DNA of 30,517 bases. Source: a virus. Positions within the stretch are counted from its first letter, which is position 1, and the number at the start of each line of letters is the position of its first letter. The notes under the pieces were generated by a model. It had not been told where the DNA came from and ran no database searches. It worked only from the letters and a program-made list of their open reading frames with translations. Both the position numbers and the translations under genes were made by a program. The stretch covers positions 1-30,517 of the IMG/VR virus record IMGVR_UViG_3300030333_006690; one strand, given 5' to 3'. Shown here piece after piece: positions 702 to 17,039 of the stretch.

Positions 702-1604
702 TTAATGCGTACCATTGCCAATATTAAAGTCTAATTCTACCACTGCACAAGCAGGACGATTGCCTAAGGTTTTACTAGGCAAACAGTCATGACACTTACC
801 AGTACAGCTAAAAGCATTGTTATCGGGGTAGTCCGCGCGTAGTTTAGACCGTACTTCCCGATGATAGTTAATATCATCATATCGATCGAAACCTTTCGAA
901 TAATGACCATCTAGATCAACCGCGATAAACTCTCCCCTAGTAATAGGCAATTCTAAAACCGCTGATTTTAGCGCGTTGTCATTGTCGTAAATACTACCAC
1001 TTGAAATGTTCAGACAATAGTTATCGGGAAACTTTAACCCCTGTTTATGCCAATCTACAAACAGATTCCAGGATTTACTATAACCCCACGATTTAAGATC
1101 AGGCCTGGTATTCAATAGGCTAAACCAAAAACCTAGTGTTTCGATCGAATCAATATCACCGTCGACGTATAACCTTACGTAGATATCGGGTTTTAGTTTG
1201 TTCCATGCTGCGCGGATTACTGATTTTCTATTGTCTAGTAAAATTGTATTTTGCAATTGTCGACAAAAAACGGCAGGATTACGCCAAGCCTTGAAAGAAT
1301 AACACCACTCTAAACACTTACCCGCGCCCGGACATGTAAACCCGGGCAACGTACTAAAATTGACATAGTGCAATTTGGTATTTTTACCACTAAAGATACT
1401 AAACAAGTCGGGACTATTACCCGTGTTATTTTTTGCGTAATAATCGAAAACGCGCGCCAGTTTCATAAAGTAGTACCCATATGTTCCGCGCTGTTTTACC
1501 TTACCGGTACGATACGCATAAGCGCGCATAATCTGCGCGCGTTGCTGGTACGTTTTCGCGTTTATGATTTTACGTGCTAGGTTTTTTAGCCTCTTAAACG
1601 TCAT
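702..1604 (-). CDS. GP88-like phage cysteine-cluster protein
   Basis: The 300-aa product resembles the phage 'gene product 88' family, judged by the pattern FTCPGAGKCLEWCYS near residue 95 followed by an Arg/Gln/Asn-rich helix. A second cysteine cluster, CTGKCHDC, lies near the C-terminus with a further Cys about 12 residues later. Together these could bind an iron-sulfur cluster or zinc. Family members have no settled biochemical role that I can state. The ATG at 1604 is preferred over the one at 1610 because a GGGGGG site lies 8 nt upstream of it, whereas it would almost touch the earlier ATG. It overlaps the end of the upstream gene, indicating translational coupling. Confidence 0.8.
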   Translation of the reverse strand: MTFKRLKNLARKIINAKTYQQRAQIMRAYAYRTGKVKQRGTYGYYFMKLARVFDYYAKNNTGNSPDLFSIFSGKNTKLHYVNFSTLPGFTCPGAGKCLEWCYSFKAWRNPAVFCRQLQNTILLDNRKSVIRAAWNKLKPDIYVRLYVDGDIDSIETLGFWFSLLNTRPDLKSWGYSKSWNLFVDWHKQGLKFPDNYCLNISSGSIYDNDNALKSAVLELPITRGEFIAVDLDGHYSKGFDRYDDINYHREVRSKLRADYPDNNAFSCTGKCHDCLPSKTLGNRPACAVVELDFNIGNGTH

Positions 1605-1758
1605 TATCATTACCCCCCATAAATGCCCATAGAATCAGGCGTTGTGCGTATAGTTTAGGCAATTCGATAGAATCGGGGTTTTCGTTTTCTAGGCTATTTA
1701 TAAAAAACTCAATCCGCTCCAATTCTACTTCTGCATTATCTTTATTTATTGGCAACAT
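1594..1758 (-). CDS. small acidic hypothetical protein (54 aa)
   Basis: The product is short and acidic, with helical character (repeated Glu and Leu, ending WAFMGGNDNDV). No family is recognised. I chose the second ATG, at 1758, because AAAGAGAG lies 7 nt upstream; the in-frame ATG at 1776 has no ribosome site. With that start it follows the upstream stop codon by one base and overlaps the GP88-like gene by 11 nt, so all three genes are probably translated as a unit. Confidence 0.65.
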   Translation of the reverse strand: MLPINKDNAEVELERIEFFINSLENENPDSIELPKLYAQRLILWAFMGGNDNDV

Positions 1759-2867: not shown

Positions 2868-3770
2868 TTATGCCCCTAATACATCGGCAAGTGTTTCTAT
2901 ATTATCACCGTCGGCAAGATCAGGACGTAAACGAGTAATGTGAGCAAACCTTGGTCGAAGCTTAACCCCGTGTTTCATAAACCTACATTCCACGTATCCA
3001 CCCAAATACTGATCTCGTTTACACCAGGTATCATCGAGCGTTAACCCAGCAGCAGGTTTTGCAGCGTACTCTATCCCGTCGGATGATTGAAGCAGAAAAC
3101 TTCCAATTTTCGAGGTACGTTTGCCGCCTTTCATCATTTGCTTAAAACCGACAATTTTAGAATCTATGCTCACCCACTGCTTAAGCTTATAGATGATGTT
3201 CTGCTTCATAGTAGCTCGACCATTTTTATATTGGCTCTCGGGATTCCGCATAATCAAACCTTCGAATCCCTGGTCAATTGATTGACCGAACAGAATGTTT
3301 AAATCGTTGTCATTATTGATTTGATATTGAACGACAGGTGCAACTCTGTTTAGATGCCGATACCGACGCACAGTTTCGTCGTATCGCACTTTAAACGGTT
3401 TAGTCGTTTGATTATTCCACTCGTCCAGGGTGCATGAATCGAACGCATAGAACCTTATAGACTCGTTAATATCATTACCACGGATATTTGAAATTAACTG
3501 ATCAAATCTAAGGTTTCGAGAATATATCTCACCATCGATAATCGAATTGTTTTTGCGTGCTTCCGCAATTGCCTCTTCAAAGTATTGTTCCAGTTCAGCG
3601 TTAAACCGTTTCCAGTTTCTAGAATATATTCCGTCCGGGGTTATCACCGCTCGTACACCGTCGAACTTTGCCGATGCCATTAACGGGTATTTGTCGTGGT
3701 AAAAACCACTTTGAATTTCAGGTGATTTGTTAGGAGCTAACAGTAGTTTTTGATTTTGTACGTTGTTCAT
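2868..3770 (-). CDS. ATP-dependent DNA ligase
   Basis: The enzyme seals nicks in duplex DNA through a ligase-adenylate intermediate. Motif I is KFDGVR at residues 35-40 (Lys35 takes the AMP). Motif III is IDGEIY near 78-83, motif IV is EGLIMRN at 170-176, and motif V is YKLKQW at 194-199. An OB-fold-like domain fills the remaining third. At 300 aa it is compact, like small phage ligases of the T7 type. A GGGGGA site 8 nt upstream fixes the start, and ATGA couples it to the small zinc-ribbon gene. It probably joins replication and recombination intermediates of the phage. Element B begins at its stop codon. Confidence 0.93.
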   Translation of the reverse strand: MNNVQNQKLLLAPNKSPEIQSGFYHDKYPLMASAKFDGVRAVITPDGIYSRNWKRFNAELEQYFEEAIAEARKNNSIIDGEIYSRNLRFDQLISNIRGNDINESIRFYAFDSCTLDEWNNQTTKPFKVRYDETVRRYRHLNRVAPVVQYQINNDNDLNILFGQSIDQGFEGLIMRNPESQYKNGRATMKQNIIYKLKQWVSIDSKIVGFKQMMKGGKRTSKIGSFLLQSSDGIEYAAKPAAGLTLDDTWCKRDQYLGGYVECRFMKHGVKLRPRFAHITRLRPDLADGDNIETLADVLGA

Positions 3771-6430: not shown

Positions 6431-7288
6431 CTAGTTATTAACACTTAGGTGCGGTTGTCGAAGTTGTTTACTAGCGATTTGTATATATTCTGGATTTAGT
6501 TCGATTCCTATGTACTTACGCCCATTCTCGGTAGCAACTACACCTGTTGTTCCTGTACCGCTAAACGGATCGAGAACCGTTCCCCCCGGAGGACATCCCG
6601 CAACTACACATGGAGCAATTAGGTCTTTAGGAAACACAGCGAAGTGTGCGTCTTTGAACGGTTTAGTGGTAACATTCCACACAGACCTTTTATTCCTGTA
6701 CTTTCTCGCGCCTGGCTCTTTAATAGCTTCGTTATCGAAGTAATATCTTTTTGATTTGGATAACAGAAAGATATACTCGTGTGACTTAGTACACCGATCC
6801 TTTACACTTTCAGGCATAGCGTTTGGTTTGTTCCAAATAATATCCTGCCGGAGAATCCATCCGGCTTTTTGCAACTCAAACGCTACTCTCCACGGTATGC
6901 CTACCAGATTTTTTGCGGGTATGTTTACTTTGCTTCGTATTGGCCTCATTCCGACCGTTGCGTTGGTTTTGTATTGCCTACGACTACCATGCTCAAGACT
7001 TTTGCGATTGGTGTTAGACGGCGAATACGTGTCGCCTAAGTTCAGCCACAAGGTTCCTTTCTTTTTAAGCACTCGTTTAACCTGTTCGAACACATTTACC
7101 AACTCGGCAACGTATTGTTCAATTGATTCCTCTAAACCTATTTGCGTGTCCATTCCGTAGTCACGTAACTGCCAATACGGTGGACTTGTAACGCAGCAAT
7201 CAATTGACTCGTCGTTTATTGTTGGAAGTATATTTCTGCAATCATCACCGAATAGTTGAACTTCCGCTGTTTTAAAACACGCTTTCAT
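6431..7288 (-). CDS. site-specific DNA methyltransferase (TSPPYW, N4-cytosine/N6-adenine type)
   Basis: The 285-aa enzyme would transfer a methyl group from S-adenosylmethionine to an exocyclic amine of a DNA base. The catalytic motif IV is TSPPYW at residues 34-39. The AdoMet-binding motif DPFSGTGTTG is at 240-249, near the C-terminus, the beta-class order. Ser in SPPY is more usual in N4-cytosine enzymes, but N6-adenine enzymes with this motif exist. No cognate endonuclease is adjacent, so it is probably an orphan that protects phage DNA from host restriction or marks it. AGGAT lies upstream of the start, and ATGA couples it to the small zinc-ribbon gene. Confidence 0.94.
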   Translation of the reverse strand: MKACFKTAEVQLFGDDCRNILPTINDESIDCCVTSPPYWQLRDYGMDTQIGLEESIEQYVAELVNVFEQVKRVLKKKGTLWLNLGDTYSPSNTNRKSLEHGSRRQYKTNATVGMRPIRSKVNIPAKNLVGIPWRVAFELQKAGWILRQDIIWNKPNAMPESVKDRCTKSHEYIFLLSKSKRYYFDNEAIKEPGARKYRNKRSVWNVTTKPFKDAHFAVFPKDLIAPCVVAGCPPGGTVLDPFSGTGTTGVVATENGRKYIGIELNPEYIQIASKQLRQPHLSVNN

Positions 7289-14240: not shown

Positions 14241-14471
14241 TTATTTGGCAACATTGGCTTTGTCGGGGTTAATCGGCCTGTAGCTATCGCCAAGGATTAA
14301 AGCTATCACCACGCCCGATACGTTCATTGCCTGCTGCTCTGTGAGCCAGTTTTGGTAAGTGCCGATTGTCGTCACCACGGCGGTAATTACCCCGGCAAGC
14401 AGTCGTTTGCTATCAGTACTCTTAAGCCAGTCGGCTACCTTACCTTTGATATTGTCAATTATCGTCTTCAT
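14241..14471 (-). CDS. putative holin (small two-segment membrane protein)
   Basis: The 76-aa protein has a basic, amphipathic N-terminus and two hydrophobic segments (LLAGVITAVVTTIGTY and MNVSGVVIALILG). Size, position at the end of the late operon and topology fit a phage holin that would permeabilise the inner membrane. There is no sequence-specific signature, so the name is provisional. A perfect AGGAGGT ribosome site and a TGATG overlap with the preceding gene support the start. Confidence 0.6.
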   Translation of the reverse strand: MKTIIDNIKGKVADWLKSTDSKRLLAGVITAVVTTIGTYQNWLTEQQAMNVSGVVIALILGDSYRPINPDKANVAK

Positions 14472-14719
14472 CAGTTACCTCCTAGAAATGGAATTTTTTC
14501 AAGGATGCCACTGCCTGCACCACCTTTAATAATCAAATATGCCGCCAGAATCACACCGATAAGAATCGCGAGCCATTTACGTTTTTGCGATTTAGCAAGA
14601 GCCAAATTCGCTTTGGCGTCCAACCGGCTGGTTTTATTTTCGGTCTTCGCTTCTTTACGCTCGATCTTTGCGTCACCTACGTATTGTCCGTCTTCACGGT
14701 ATCGTTTTTTGCGTCCCAT
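14471..14719 (-). CDS. charged-head, single-pass membrane protein (82 aa)
   Basis: The first 48 residues are highly charged and helical (KIERKEAKTENKTSRLDAKA). A transmembrane segment (WLAILIGVILAAYLIIKGG) and a short glycine-rich end follow. The layout suggests a cytoplasmic basic region anchored in the membrane. It sits between the PRTase/HAD gene and the putative holin. Lysis or DNA-entry functions are both conceivable; no family is recognised. Confidence 0.7.
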   Translation of the reverse strand: MGRKKRYREDGQYVGDAKIERKEAKTENKTSRLDAKANLALAKSQKRKWLAILIGVILAAYLIIKGGAGSGILEKIPFLGGN

Positions 14720-15693
14720 TAGTAAATAGCTCCATTAGTTGGACAGATCACCCAGGCATCGCACCGATCTGCAATCATCTCGGCTAGTGGTGGCTCGCTC
14801 TCGATATACCAATCCATGCCATACTTAGTTATTTCCGAAGCTTTGTATTCGGCAACGTCTTCAGCTCCCGGTATATCGTTGCCCTGATACATGATTAAAC
14901 GCTTGTAACTGACCCGAAGTTCGGCAAGCAACTCGATAGTCGCTTCTCGCTGATGCTCCGGCCTCGCCGTGATAATAGCATGTACCGCCTGCTTTCGTGG
15001 CAACAACAGAGGCTCCCCAGTCCAATTGCTTACGATCACCCCGTCTAAATCAAAACCGGCGTTATCAATGAACATGGAGTTCATAAAGTTCCACTCAAGC
15101 AGATGTGGAGCGGGCAGCGGCATACCGAGAATGTCCGGCTGGAGGCCGCATAACGGATTAGCAAAAGCACTTGCAAAGATTGCCTGTGGAAAAGACTCAC
15201 GCACCTGTTTAATTACATGACCGCTCATCACCGTATCATCAAAAAACAACGGCATCGACATGTTGGCCTGCATGTGCTGAGTGCGACTACCGCCGCCGAC
15301 CATCCTTATTTCGTCGCCATCAAGAGTTGCAAGAGGCAGATGTAGCATGGTTGCCAGGTAACTAGCACCAATCATTCCGCTCCGGGGGATACCGACAACC
15401 ACCGAAATATTGTTTGGCATTGAACCCAACATTTCACGACAGATATGAATGTATTGTGTAGTTGGTATCCATCGAGCATTCTCAAACTGCTCACTTGCGT
15501 AGCGCTTATTTAGCTTTCGCTTACGCTTATTACAGCCGCCGCATGGCTTGATCCCGACGGCACTTGTCATTCGTGCAAATTTGTCGCCTACACCTTTACT
15601 CAATGTGCAGTTACGCCGTGTCGGCCTTGGCTTATGTTTACCACAGCTAACACAAACGACACCGTCATCCACCTCTTTCCAAACGCAATGCAT
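14719..15693 (-). CDS. zinc-ribbon / phosphoribosyltransferase / HAD fusion protein
   Basis: The 324-aa protein appears to join three parts. Residues 1-64 contain Cys pairs CVSCGK, NC and CGGCNKRKRKLN, a zinc-ribbon-like end seen in some phage tail-region proteins. Residues 75-200 form a type I phosphoribosyltransferase, with VVVGIPRSGM and the PRPP-binding motif LFFDDTVMSG (149-158). Residues 210-324 resemble a HAD hydrolase, with FDLDGVI (214-220), ITAR (240-243) and a Lys near 285. Such an enzyme could transfer or remove ribose-phosphate groups, but its substrate is unknown. It lies among tail genes, next to cysteine-rich tail proteins, which is an odd place for a nucleotide enzyme. Confidence 0.8.
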   Translation of the reverse strand: MHCVWKEVDDGVVCVSCGKHKPRPTRRNCTLSKGVGDKFARMTSAVGIKPCGGCNKRKRKLNKRYASEQFENARWIPTTQYIHICREMLGSMPNNISVVVGIPRSGMIGASYLATMLHLPLATLDGDEIRMVGGGSRTQHMQANMSMPLFFDDTVMSGHVIKQVRESFPQAIFASAFANPLCGLQPDILGMPLPAPHLLEWNFMNSMFIDNAGFDLDGVIVSNWTGEPLLLPRKQAVHAIITARPEHQREATIELLAELRVSYKRLIMYQGNDIPGAEDVAEYKASEITKYGMDWYIESEPPLAEMIADRCDAWVICPTNGAIY

Positions 15694-15695
15694 CG

Positions 15696-17039
15696 CTAAC
15701 TCCCCACGATATCTACCGTTAACCCCAGCAGACTACAGGTGCGTCCGCTATTTAGATTCTGCGACTCGATAACTTTTCCCCAATCGGTTATGTACCAATA
15801 AGTGTCAACGGGAACATTGCTCAGGTTCACCATACAATCAGAGTACGCCGCATCCGACAACTCCGGCAATTCAAAAGTAAACCGCGCCCCTGCTCCACTG
15901 TCACACATAAGCTGTAGCGGATACAACGGATGATGCCACATAAACAAGTCGTCACTCGTGCCGAACGGCGTTCCGGTATGTAGACAAACCTGAAGATGTG
16001 CTTGTTTTCCGGTAAACCATAAAACCATCTTAGAAACATGCACGTCGCTACCGTTGCATGATCCGCTCGGAGGTGAGCTATGACCGTCAGCCGAATATAC
16101 ATATACGCAATTGCCTGATGCGTAATCACTCTTTGCGTAATAGTCTGCCGGTTTATTTCGGGTATTGACCCAATCGTTTACCCCATGCGGCCATTTTTCG
16201 TAGTTGTCGGACTGTAATGTTAAGGTGTACGTGTCGTTCAGATTTGAACAATTCGAACACGTTACAAATCTGAACTCCGGATCAGCAATTCCAGAGATCG
16301 TCACATCGAACTCGTCTGGCACTTCATCACACGGACAATCCAGATAACAACTCGGACAGTTTTCTTCCTCAGCACTTTTGATAGCGGCAATCGCAAATAT
16401 TTTTATTGTTGAAGAGGACGATTCACTATGATCAAACCCATAGTCTGCACCTTCAAATGTTGTGTATTTAGTAGTTAGCCCAAAGCCTGACGGTTCGCAA
16501 TTCCAATAGGCTGCTTCATCCGTCCATACCGGATCGACAGTAATCGTTGTATGCACAATGACGTGTGTTGTTGTCCATTGCAAGCAAACATGCTCGTTAT
16601 CAGGCTCTGCTCCTCGAACACCAGTGCGTGAAGCAATTGTTGATGCTGTGCCTGACGATACTTTACCGATGACGAGGTTATAGACGGTGATTAACGCATT
16701 GTCGGTATAAGCACAGGACTCGTCAGCAGTACGTGTAATTTCTAAATAATGATGATTGTTTGCGTCCAGATAATCAAAATAGATTTTGACCGTCGAACCT
16801 ACATCCAATTTTTTGAACCGAAACCGCAATGAACCTTTTTTGTCAGATGTGTTCATTGCACGGTTTGACCACAACACCCCGCTAGTCGATGTGTTTTCGT
16901 AGCCGGTACTAGTTGCCTGCCACGCTGTGTCGCTGTTGTTCCATACGGATGAAATGCTGCCAGATGTCGCGTTGTCGACTAGACGTGTACAGCCCGTATC
17001 GCAGCATTCGCAGCCTGGCGAAAACCGATTGACTGCCAT
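15696..17039 (-). CDS. cysteine-rich tail/adhesin protein (447 aa)
   Basis: The protein starts with a Cys-dense region (CECCDTGC) and has beta-rich domains that look like carbohydrate-binding or jelly-roll modules (about 30-210). A second Cys cluster, CPSCYLDCPCDE, near 228-240 precedes another beta-rich part with CSNCSNL. Many cysteines suggest disulfides or metal sites in an extracellular structural protein. Its place after the tape measure suggests a tail-tip fibre or receptor-binding protein. The style resembles large Cys-rich surface proteins of planctomycetes (impression only). No family is confirmed. Confidence 0.7.
   Translation of the reverse strand: MAVNRFSPGCECCDTGCTRLVDNATSGSISSVWNNSDTAWQATSTGYENTSTSGVLWSNRAMNTSDKKGSLRFRFKKLDVGSTVKIYFDYLDANNHHYLEITRTADESCAYTDNALITVYNLVIGKVSSGTASTIASRTGVRGAEPDNEHVCLQWTTTHVIVHTTITVDPVWTDEAAYWNCEPSGFGLTTKYTTFEGADYGFDHSESSSSTIKIFAIAAIKSAEEENCPSCYLDCPCDEVPDEFDVTISGIADPEFRFVTCSNCSNLNDTYTLTLQSDNYEKWPHGVNDWVNTRNKPADYYAKSDYASGNCVYVYSADGHSSPPSGSCNGSDVHVSKMVLWFTGKQAHLQVCLHTGTPFGTSDDLFMWHHPLYPLQLMCDSGAGARFTFELPELSDAAYSDCMVNLSNVPVDTYWYITDWGKVIESQNLNSGRTCSLLGLTVDIVGS

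Follow-up and report, generated by a model that had tools for sequence, protein, structure and literature searches.

The gene described here encodes a protein that is probably, at a rough probability of 60%, a bifunctional PRPP-dependent ribosyl-transferring enzyme. Its acceptor would most likely be a glycan, or else a surface or virion protein that bears glycans. It lies in the IMG/VR virus record IMGVR_UViG_3300030333_006690, the whole 30,517 bases of which were analysed and are called the window. The 324-residue protein consists of an N-terminal Cys-rich tag, a type I phosphoribosyltransferase (PRTase) domain and a capless HAD phosphatase domain (Table 1). In the mechanism we propose, the PRTase domain would bind PRPP and move ribose-5-phosphate onto an acceptor hydroxyl, and the HAD domain of the same chain would then strip the 5'-phosphate, so that ribose is left. 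The tag, which is also found on phage glycosyltransferases, probably docks the enzyme on its target. A glycan-type modification is favoured because of the gene neighbourhoods and fusions of the family.

The gene and its setting in the window

An initial annotation had described the open frame as a three-part protein of the zinc-ribbon, phosphoribosyltransferase and HAD type, with the PRPP motif LFFDDTVMSG and the HAD motif FDLDG (residues 214-218) both intact, and this description was borne out by the frame, the structural model and the profiles. Close relatives are 83% identical (L002) and, over a truncated piece, 87% identical (L003). The dN/dS of the window protein against L002, 0.07 at nearly saturated synonymous sites, shows that the frame is not a chance one; by domain, the value is 0.10 for the tag, 0.08 for the PRTase and 0.05 for the HAD domain. 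The AlphaFold2 model of the whole protein, built from a 69-row alignment, has a pLDDT of 90.2 and a pTM of 0.82. When the protein was searched singly against PHROG, it gave weak matches to a tag family, a polynucleotide kinase and a phosphoribosyl transferase.

Upstream on the same strand are the terminase, capsid and tape measure genes, together with more tail-region genes that have no family matches, and close by, on the opposite strand, is an integrase gene. A Cys-rich gene ends 2 bases before the start of PRTase-HAD, and the small gene that follows has no match in Pfam or PHROG. The same phage carries a GP88-family protein, a protein with an ATP-dependent DNA ligase domain and a DNA N4/N6 methyltransferase. 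The profile of one tail-region gene (c6) has matches in 5/392 genomes of the Planctomycetota, the sole phylum searched, and a planctomycete host for the window phage is our guess.

Table 1. Positions in the window of the PRTase-HAD gene, its domains and motifs, and other genes mentioned in the text.
Feature	Residues	Positions	Strand	Remarks
PRTase-HAD gene (Cys tag - PRTase - HAD)	1-324	14719..15693	minus	Open frame, ATG start, 324 aa
Cys-rich tag	1-70	15484..15693	minus	C3, C14, C17, C29, C51, C54
Type I PRTase domain	71-205	15079..15483	minus	Profile and structure matches
GIPRSG loop	101-106	15376..15393	minus	R104, S105, G106 in 84/84
PRPP loop LFFDDTVMSG	149-158	15220..15249	minus	Type I PRTase signature
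PHLLEWN motif	196-202	15088..15108	minus	Aligns with XGPRT hood region
HAD phosphatase domain, capless	206-324 and stop	14719..15078	minus	Model and T4 Pnkp match
HAD motif I, DLDG	215-218	15040..15051	minus	D215, D217, G218 in 84/84
HAD motif II, TAR	242-244	14962..14970	minus	T242, R244 in 84/84
HAD motif III	K284	14842..14844	minus	82/82 untruncated rows
HAD motif IV, ES	298-299	14797..14802	minus	E298 81/82, S299 82/82 untruncated rows
Small downstream gene		14471..14719	minus	Its start shares one base with the PRTase-HAD stop
Cys-rich 447-residue protein (cluster c11)		15696..17039	minus	4.3% Cys; directly upstream of PRTase-HAD
GP88-family protein		702-1610		Same phage
ATP-dependent DNA ligase domain protein		2868-3770		Same phage
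DNA N4/N6 methyltransferase		6431-7288		Same phage

Two conserved active sites and a shared tag

The gene is widespread in viruses: scanning IMG/VR with a profile turned up 105 contigs that encode relatives, and 80 of these loci were retained for analysis. The 91 aligned proteins were reduced to 84 distinct ones before residues were counted, two truncated proteins (L054 and L111) were omitted from the tree and from the AlphaFold alignment, and the truncated L003 was used in a few close-relative comparisons only. Structure prediction and comparison of the active sites gave confident PRTase and HAD folds with conserved sites, and the relatives have not lost their catalytic residues, both active sites being invariant or nearly so in the 84 distinct proteins.

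The Pfam PRTase model PF00156 scores the window protein at E 0.14 and 11.9 bits against a gathering score of 26.3, a score that is reached by four relatives (L026, L027, L029 and L030), and the NCBIfam xanthine PRTase model matches it at E 1.8e-4, below its cut-off. With a profile of the relatives, E-values against GpT-1 and XGPRT fall to between 4e-9 and 3e-8. By structure, residues 72 to about 209 superpose on HGXPRT and XGPRT with a Z of about 14 in VIA-align (for E. coli XGPRT, Z 14.3, rmsd 3.5, 126 residues aligned). In the PRPP loop, D153 is present in 84/84 proteins, D152 in 82/84 (the other two have Glu) and G158 in 83/84, while position 157, a Ser in the window protein, is Ser or Thr in 42/84. 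From its position, we take the GIPRSG loop to be the pyrophosphate-side loop. P196, W201 and N202 of the PHLLEWN motif are found in 84/84, a count that is biased because the viral rows were retrieved with a pattern over that very stretch.

The nearest solved relatives are purine PRTases, and a PRTase paired with a 5'-phosphatase is a logical nucleoside-making pair. The protein could on these grounds couple a nucleobase, or a ring resembling one, to PRPP and dephosphorylate the product; the resulting free nucleoside, or a metabolite like it, would serve in salvage, in the modification of bases or in counter-defence. We consider this unlikely. In XGPRT the Asp of the loop serves the purine (the general base of purine PRTases), but residue 156, which aligns with it, is neither Asp nor Glu in any of the 84 distinct proteins, whereas a PRTase of the nucleobase type, the stand-alone enzyme of Flavobacterium phage immuto, retains it in the sequence DDICDTG. 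The immuto gene sits amid thymidylate, deazaguanine and nucleotide genes; around the PRTase-HAD gene there is no recurring cluster of nucleotide genes, and its cellular relatives are in glycosyltransferase loci. The missing Asp favours ribosyl transfer; the purine-enzyme fold of the PRTase domain counts against it.

The HAD domain, modelled separately from a 58-row alignment (pLDDT 94.2), has 119 residues and no cap, and therefore may give room for a large substrate. VIA-align matches it to the phosphatase of T4 Pnkp (Z 12.3, rmsd 2.9, 110 residues aligned) and to Pnkp1 (Z 11.8); the HAD part of the profile of relatives matches Pnkp1 at E 5e-5, and the polynucleotide kinase family phrog_415 matches this part of the window protein at E 0.001. 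Foldseek E-values for so small a domain were all greater than 0.001. Resemblance to nucleic-acid phosphatases of the Pnkp type speaks against ribosyl transfer and raises the alternative of an enzyme that works on RNA or DNA ends, with the PRTase as a binding or modifying module, in repair against host nucleases, for which one could also cite the DNA ligase domain protein of this phage. This alternative is very improbable: the protein has no kinase domain, the rest of it being tag and PRTase, its PRPP loop is conserved, the ligase gene is 11 kb away and the neighbours of the relatives are transferases of sugars and small groups. Ribosyl transfer remains our preferred reading of the two domains together.

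The six Cys residues of the tag are invariant in 10/10 aligned sequences, and across the 84 distinct proteins C3 is aligned in 67/84, C17 in 72/84 and C29 in 68/84; from these residues, the tag probably binds zinc. Most viral copies have a Cys-rich stretch at the N-terminus; of the copies in cellular glycan loci, 0/7 do. The tag of the window protein is matched by phrog_32048 (E 2e-6 with the single sequence). A similar tag stands at the N-terminus of phage glycosyltransferases, namely a GT8 protein (L084) and two GT8 plus GT4 proteins (L132 and L136), and a tag of the window type heads a GT4-like protein (L163; Pfam E 6e-4, below the cut-off). Stand-alone copies were also found (L158, L161 and L162). 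In a scan of the proteins neighbouring the gene, the glycosyltransferase of L084 was the only one outside the PRTase-HAD family to have the tag.

Two further observations concern the tag. A set of small virus proteins (L168-L187) with the pattern GLGDT...CGCDKRKxxLN is kin to the tag and to phrog_32048. On virus contig L136 (2980-6387), the tag-GT8-GT4 protein is accompanied by a gene of glycosyltransferase family 29 (sialyltransferase; E 1e-21), and an additional gene reads as a CMP-sugar synthetase, with no Pfam match; this contig possibly holds a phage sialylation set.

Viral and cellular neighbourhoods

A typed modification enzyme lies within four genes of the PRTase-HAD gene in 54/80 viral loci, almost always directly downstream. 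Counted as gene slots, with denominators that include the window, such enzymes occupy position +1 in 46/79, +2 in 40/78 and +3 in 26/78, compared with 1/80 at -1, 1/79 at -2 and 3/295 at +5 to +9 together; this sharp position is partly built in, because the clusters were chosen for recurring around the gene, but their functions are not built in. The enzymes are sulfotransferases, methyltransferases, glycosyltransferases, pyruvyltransferases, cytidylyltransferases and radical SAM proteins, typed with Pfam (Methyltransf_24, Sulfotransfer_2, PS_pyruv_trans, CTP_transf_like, Radical_SAM, glycosyltransferase group 1 and Sulfotransfer_4) or, for GT8 and CTP_transf_3, below the Pfam cut-off. Two clusters have no Pfam match: c7, which matches the PHROG Galactose-3-O-sulfotransferase at E 8e-12, and c67, a glycosyltransferase by eye. 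When both are left out, 53/80 loci still have a typed enzyme and only L056 is lost.

In three loci (L100, L103 and L104), a GT8-like part, below the Pfam cut-off, stands ahead of PRTase-HAD in a single 641-residue protein; the fusions in L103 and L104 were assigned by length and clustering.

Seven loci (L074, L076, L077, L079, L080, L086 and L114) have a recurring run of PRTase-HAD, GT8 and sulfotransferase, with a polysaccharide pyruvyl transferase next in 6/7, and in the contigs that extend far enough the run adjoins a giant fibre-like gene. We read this giant gene and the small genes around the large-phage copies as virion genes; PHROG has nothing for either. A separate oddity is found in L081 (8862-11111), where Hint and LAGLIDADG domains, which probably make up an intein, split a 749-residue gene resembling NAD-dependent epimerase / GDP-mannose dehydratase.

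Outside viruses, tblastn with a cellular relative gave 41 plasmid records, all at least 80% covered, from seven genera with Rhizobium foremost, and cellular relatives are also found on some planctomycete chromosomes. In all six annotated plasmid neighbourhoods that we opened (6/6), a glycosyltransferase lies within two genes of the PRTase-HAD gene; two further records opened carried no annotation. In Paracoccus, the gene sits in polysaccharide loci that also encode a nucleotide sugar dehydrogenase. On the Rhizobium plasmids, PRTase-HAD is found with a caspase-family gene and a large glycosyltransferase. In three planctomycete loci (L026-L028), the neighbours read by eye as glycosyltransferases and as carbamoyltransferase-like and galactopyranose-mutase-like proteins. 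The Rhizobium plasmids (L030, L033 and L188) conserve the order caspase-family gene, PRTase-HAD, small gene, large glycosyltransferase, and in 2/3 of those opened (L030 and L033) an annotated VgrG gene (type VI secretion) comes next after the large glycosyltransferase.

Among 392 Planctomycetota genomes, a profile search gave matches at E <= 0.01 in 14. The matches L010, L011, L013 and L014 span PRTase and HAD, L012 spans most of both, and five (L015-L019) cover the tag region only; the PRTase-HAD family profile matched 7 of the same 392 genomes. One candidate, L004 (E 4e-4), was rejected as a relative, its match lying within a 1203-residue open frame that reads by eye as a glycoside hydrolase; the same genome also yielded L007, a genuine but partial relative. 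From their gene content we read L023 and L024 as prophages, and L025 has a portal-like gene just under the Pfam cut-off. In the tree, viral and prophage-like copies are split from the seven copies in cellular glycan loci with support of 100/100; support is low for many branches within the viral side, and a long stem carries the window and L035. Among isolated phages (INPHARED), tblastn with four queries gave 19 records for the window, 229 for L024, 2 for L084 and 4 for L091, none of which covers 80% of its query; the matches listed involve the tag alone, the HAD parts of polynucleotide kinases, a PRTase of the nucleobase type or, weakly, a hypothetical protein.

The initial annotation had suggested that the protein might modify a nucleotide-linked sugar, alter the host surface, act against host defence or be packaged in the virion. 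Its sugar or surface role is the one favoured by the neighbourhoods and fusions, with the amendment that PRPP used directly as ribosyl donor is a better reading than a nucleotide-linked sugar. Nothing was found in support of an anti-defence action on NAD or PRPP pools. An enzyme that drains or restores these pools in infection would have a parallel in the phage NAMPT that PMC12363180 presents as proposed to counter Thoeris NAD depletion, but the gene sits in runs of structural genes, no NAD enzymes recur nearby and the cellular relatives are in glycan loci; we regard this as the most improbable of the readings.

The ribosyl-transfer reading must also accommodate the window's own group. Within four genes of PRTase-HAD, the window and its 20 nearest loci (L035-L054; 21 loci in all) lack any typed enzyme for sugars or modification, which counts against this reading. 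Their gene order, with minor exceptions, is tape measure (c9), c6, c10, c8, Cys-rich c11, PRTase-HAD and small genes; c11 is directly upstream in most of these loci, and in L041 and L042 a different Cys-rich gene stands in its place. Distant loci, among them L056, L062, L067, L068, L083 and L108, likewise encode a Cys-rich protein (5 to 8% Cys) directly upstream, which hints that the upstream protein may be a partner or the acceptor of PRTase-HAD.

Within the ribosyl-transfer reading, we give somewhat more than half of the probability to a virion acceptor, and the remainder to a host-surface or other glycan acceptor. For the window phage itself, a virion-borne acceptor, perhaps the upstream Cys-rich protein, seems likelier, given the place of the gene among the tail genes; the alternative is a glycan of the host envelope. 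A more specific proposal, which we regard as speculative and rather doubtful in its full form, is that many uncultured phages have a separately assembled PRPP-dependent ribosyl glycosyltransferase, made from an XGPRT-like PRTase and a capless Pnkp-like HAD, whose swappable Cys tag aims it at a tail or adhesin protein of the virion, perhaps the upstream Cys-rich one. The particle would then bear ribose, in relatives beside additions such as sulfate or pyruvate.

If ribosyl transfer is the correct reading, a classical fold of nucleotide salvage has become, widely in phages, a tool of the glycosyltransferase type with PRPP as its direct donor, and joins the ribofuranosyltransferases of capsules as another solution. 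A function open to testing could then be assigned to the proteins of Rhizobium and Paracoccus plasmids that bear only the name 'phosphoribosyltransferase family protein', the Cys-rich tag would be a marker for finding such genes, and it would become testable whether uncultured phages make their own sugar decorations during assembly.

Comparison with known systems

In the open-licence full-text literature, we recognised no account of a phage PRTase-HAD ribosyl enzyme. BtrL of ribostamycin is a precedent. The type I PRTase XGPRT shares its fold and its DD..(S/T)G loop with the window protein, but the family lacks the loop Asp and has PHxLEWN in place of the purine-binding stretch. T4 Pnkp and Pnkp1 share the capless HAD fold and the motif II [ST]xR; in contrast to Pnkp, the window protein is without a kinase domain, is fused to a PRTase and has ES as motif IV. 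The known ribofuranosyltransferases (CriT and gPRT) are not among the structure-search matches listed, and gPRT, described in 2022, reportedly has a separate fold; kinship may nevertheless exist.

Phages can glycosylate their virions, as mycobacteriophages are known to do (cited in PMC12619734). Three systems bear on the enzyme. Cj1432 of Campylobacter jejuni joins GT4, HAD and a PRPP-dependent ribose-5-phosphate transferase in one protein of proven activity (PMC12096443). The fusion in L100 likewise unites a glycosyltransferase, a HAD and a PRPP-type transferase part in one chain, but its order is GT8-PRTase-HAD and that of Cj1432 is GT4-HAD-transferase (PMC12096443); the window protein differs from Cj1432 in having a Cys tag instead of the glycosyltransferase part. 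In Bcs3 (CriT-CrpP) of Haemophilus influenzae type b, a PRTase-like core makes O-linked ribose-5-phosphate from PRPP and a HAD phosphatase is in the same chain, so that, like the window protein, it unites a PRPP transferase and a HAD phosphatase (PMC10299916). In CrpP, about 98 residues form a helical cap (PMC10299916), whereas the window HAD domain has none. HAD precedes the transferase in Bcs3, Cj1432 and ORF15 (PMC10299916, PMC12096443, PMC11127046), and PRTase precedes HAD in the window. Because of this reversed order and the HAD domain without a CrpP cap, we place the window protein outside the gPRT-PRP and CriT-CrpP families, a placement by architecture, and we say only that it would work like them. 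The gPRT-PRP ribofuranosyltransferases of O antigens follow the same two-step logic, transfer and then dephosphorylation (PMC11127046).
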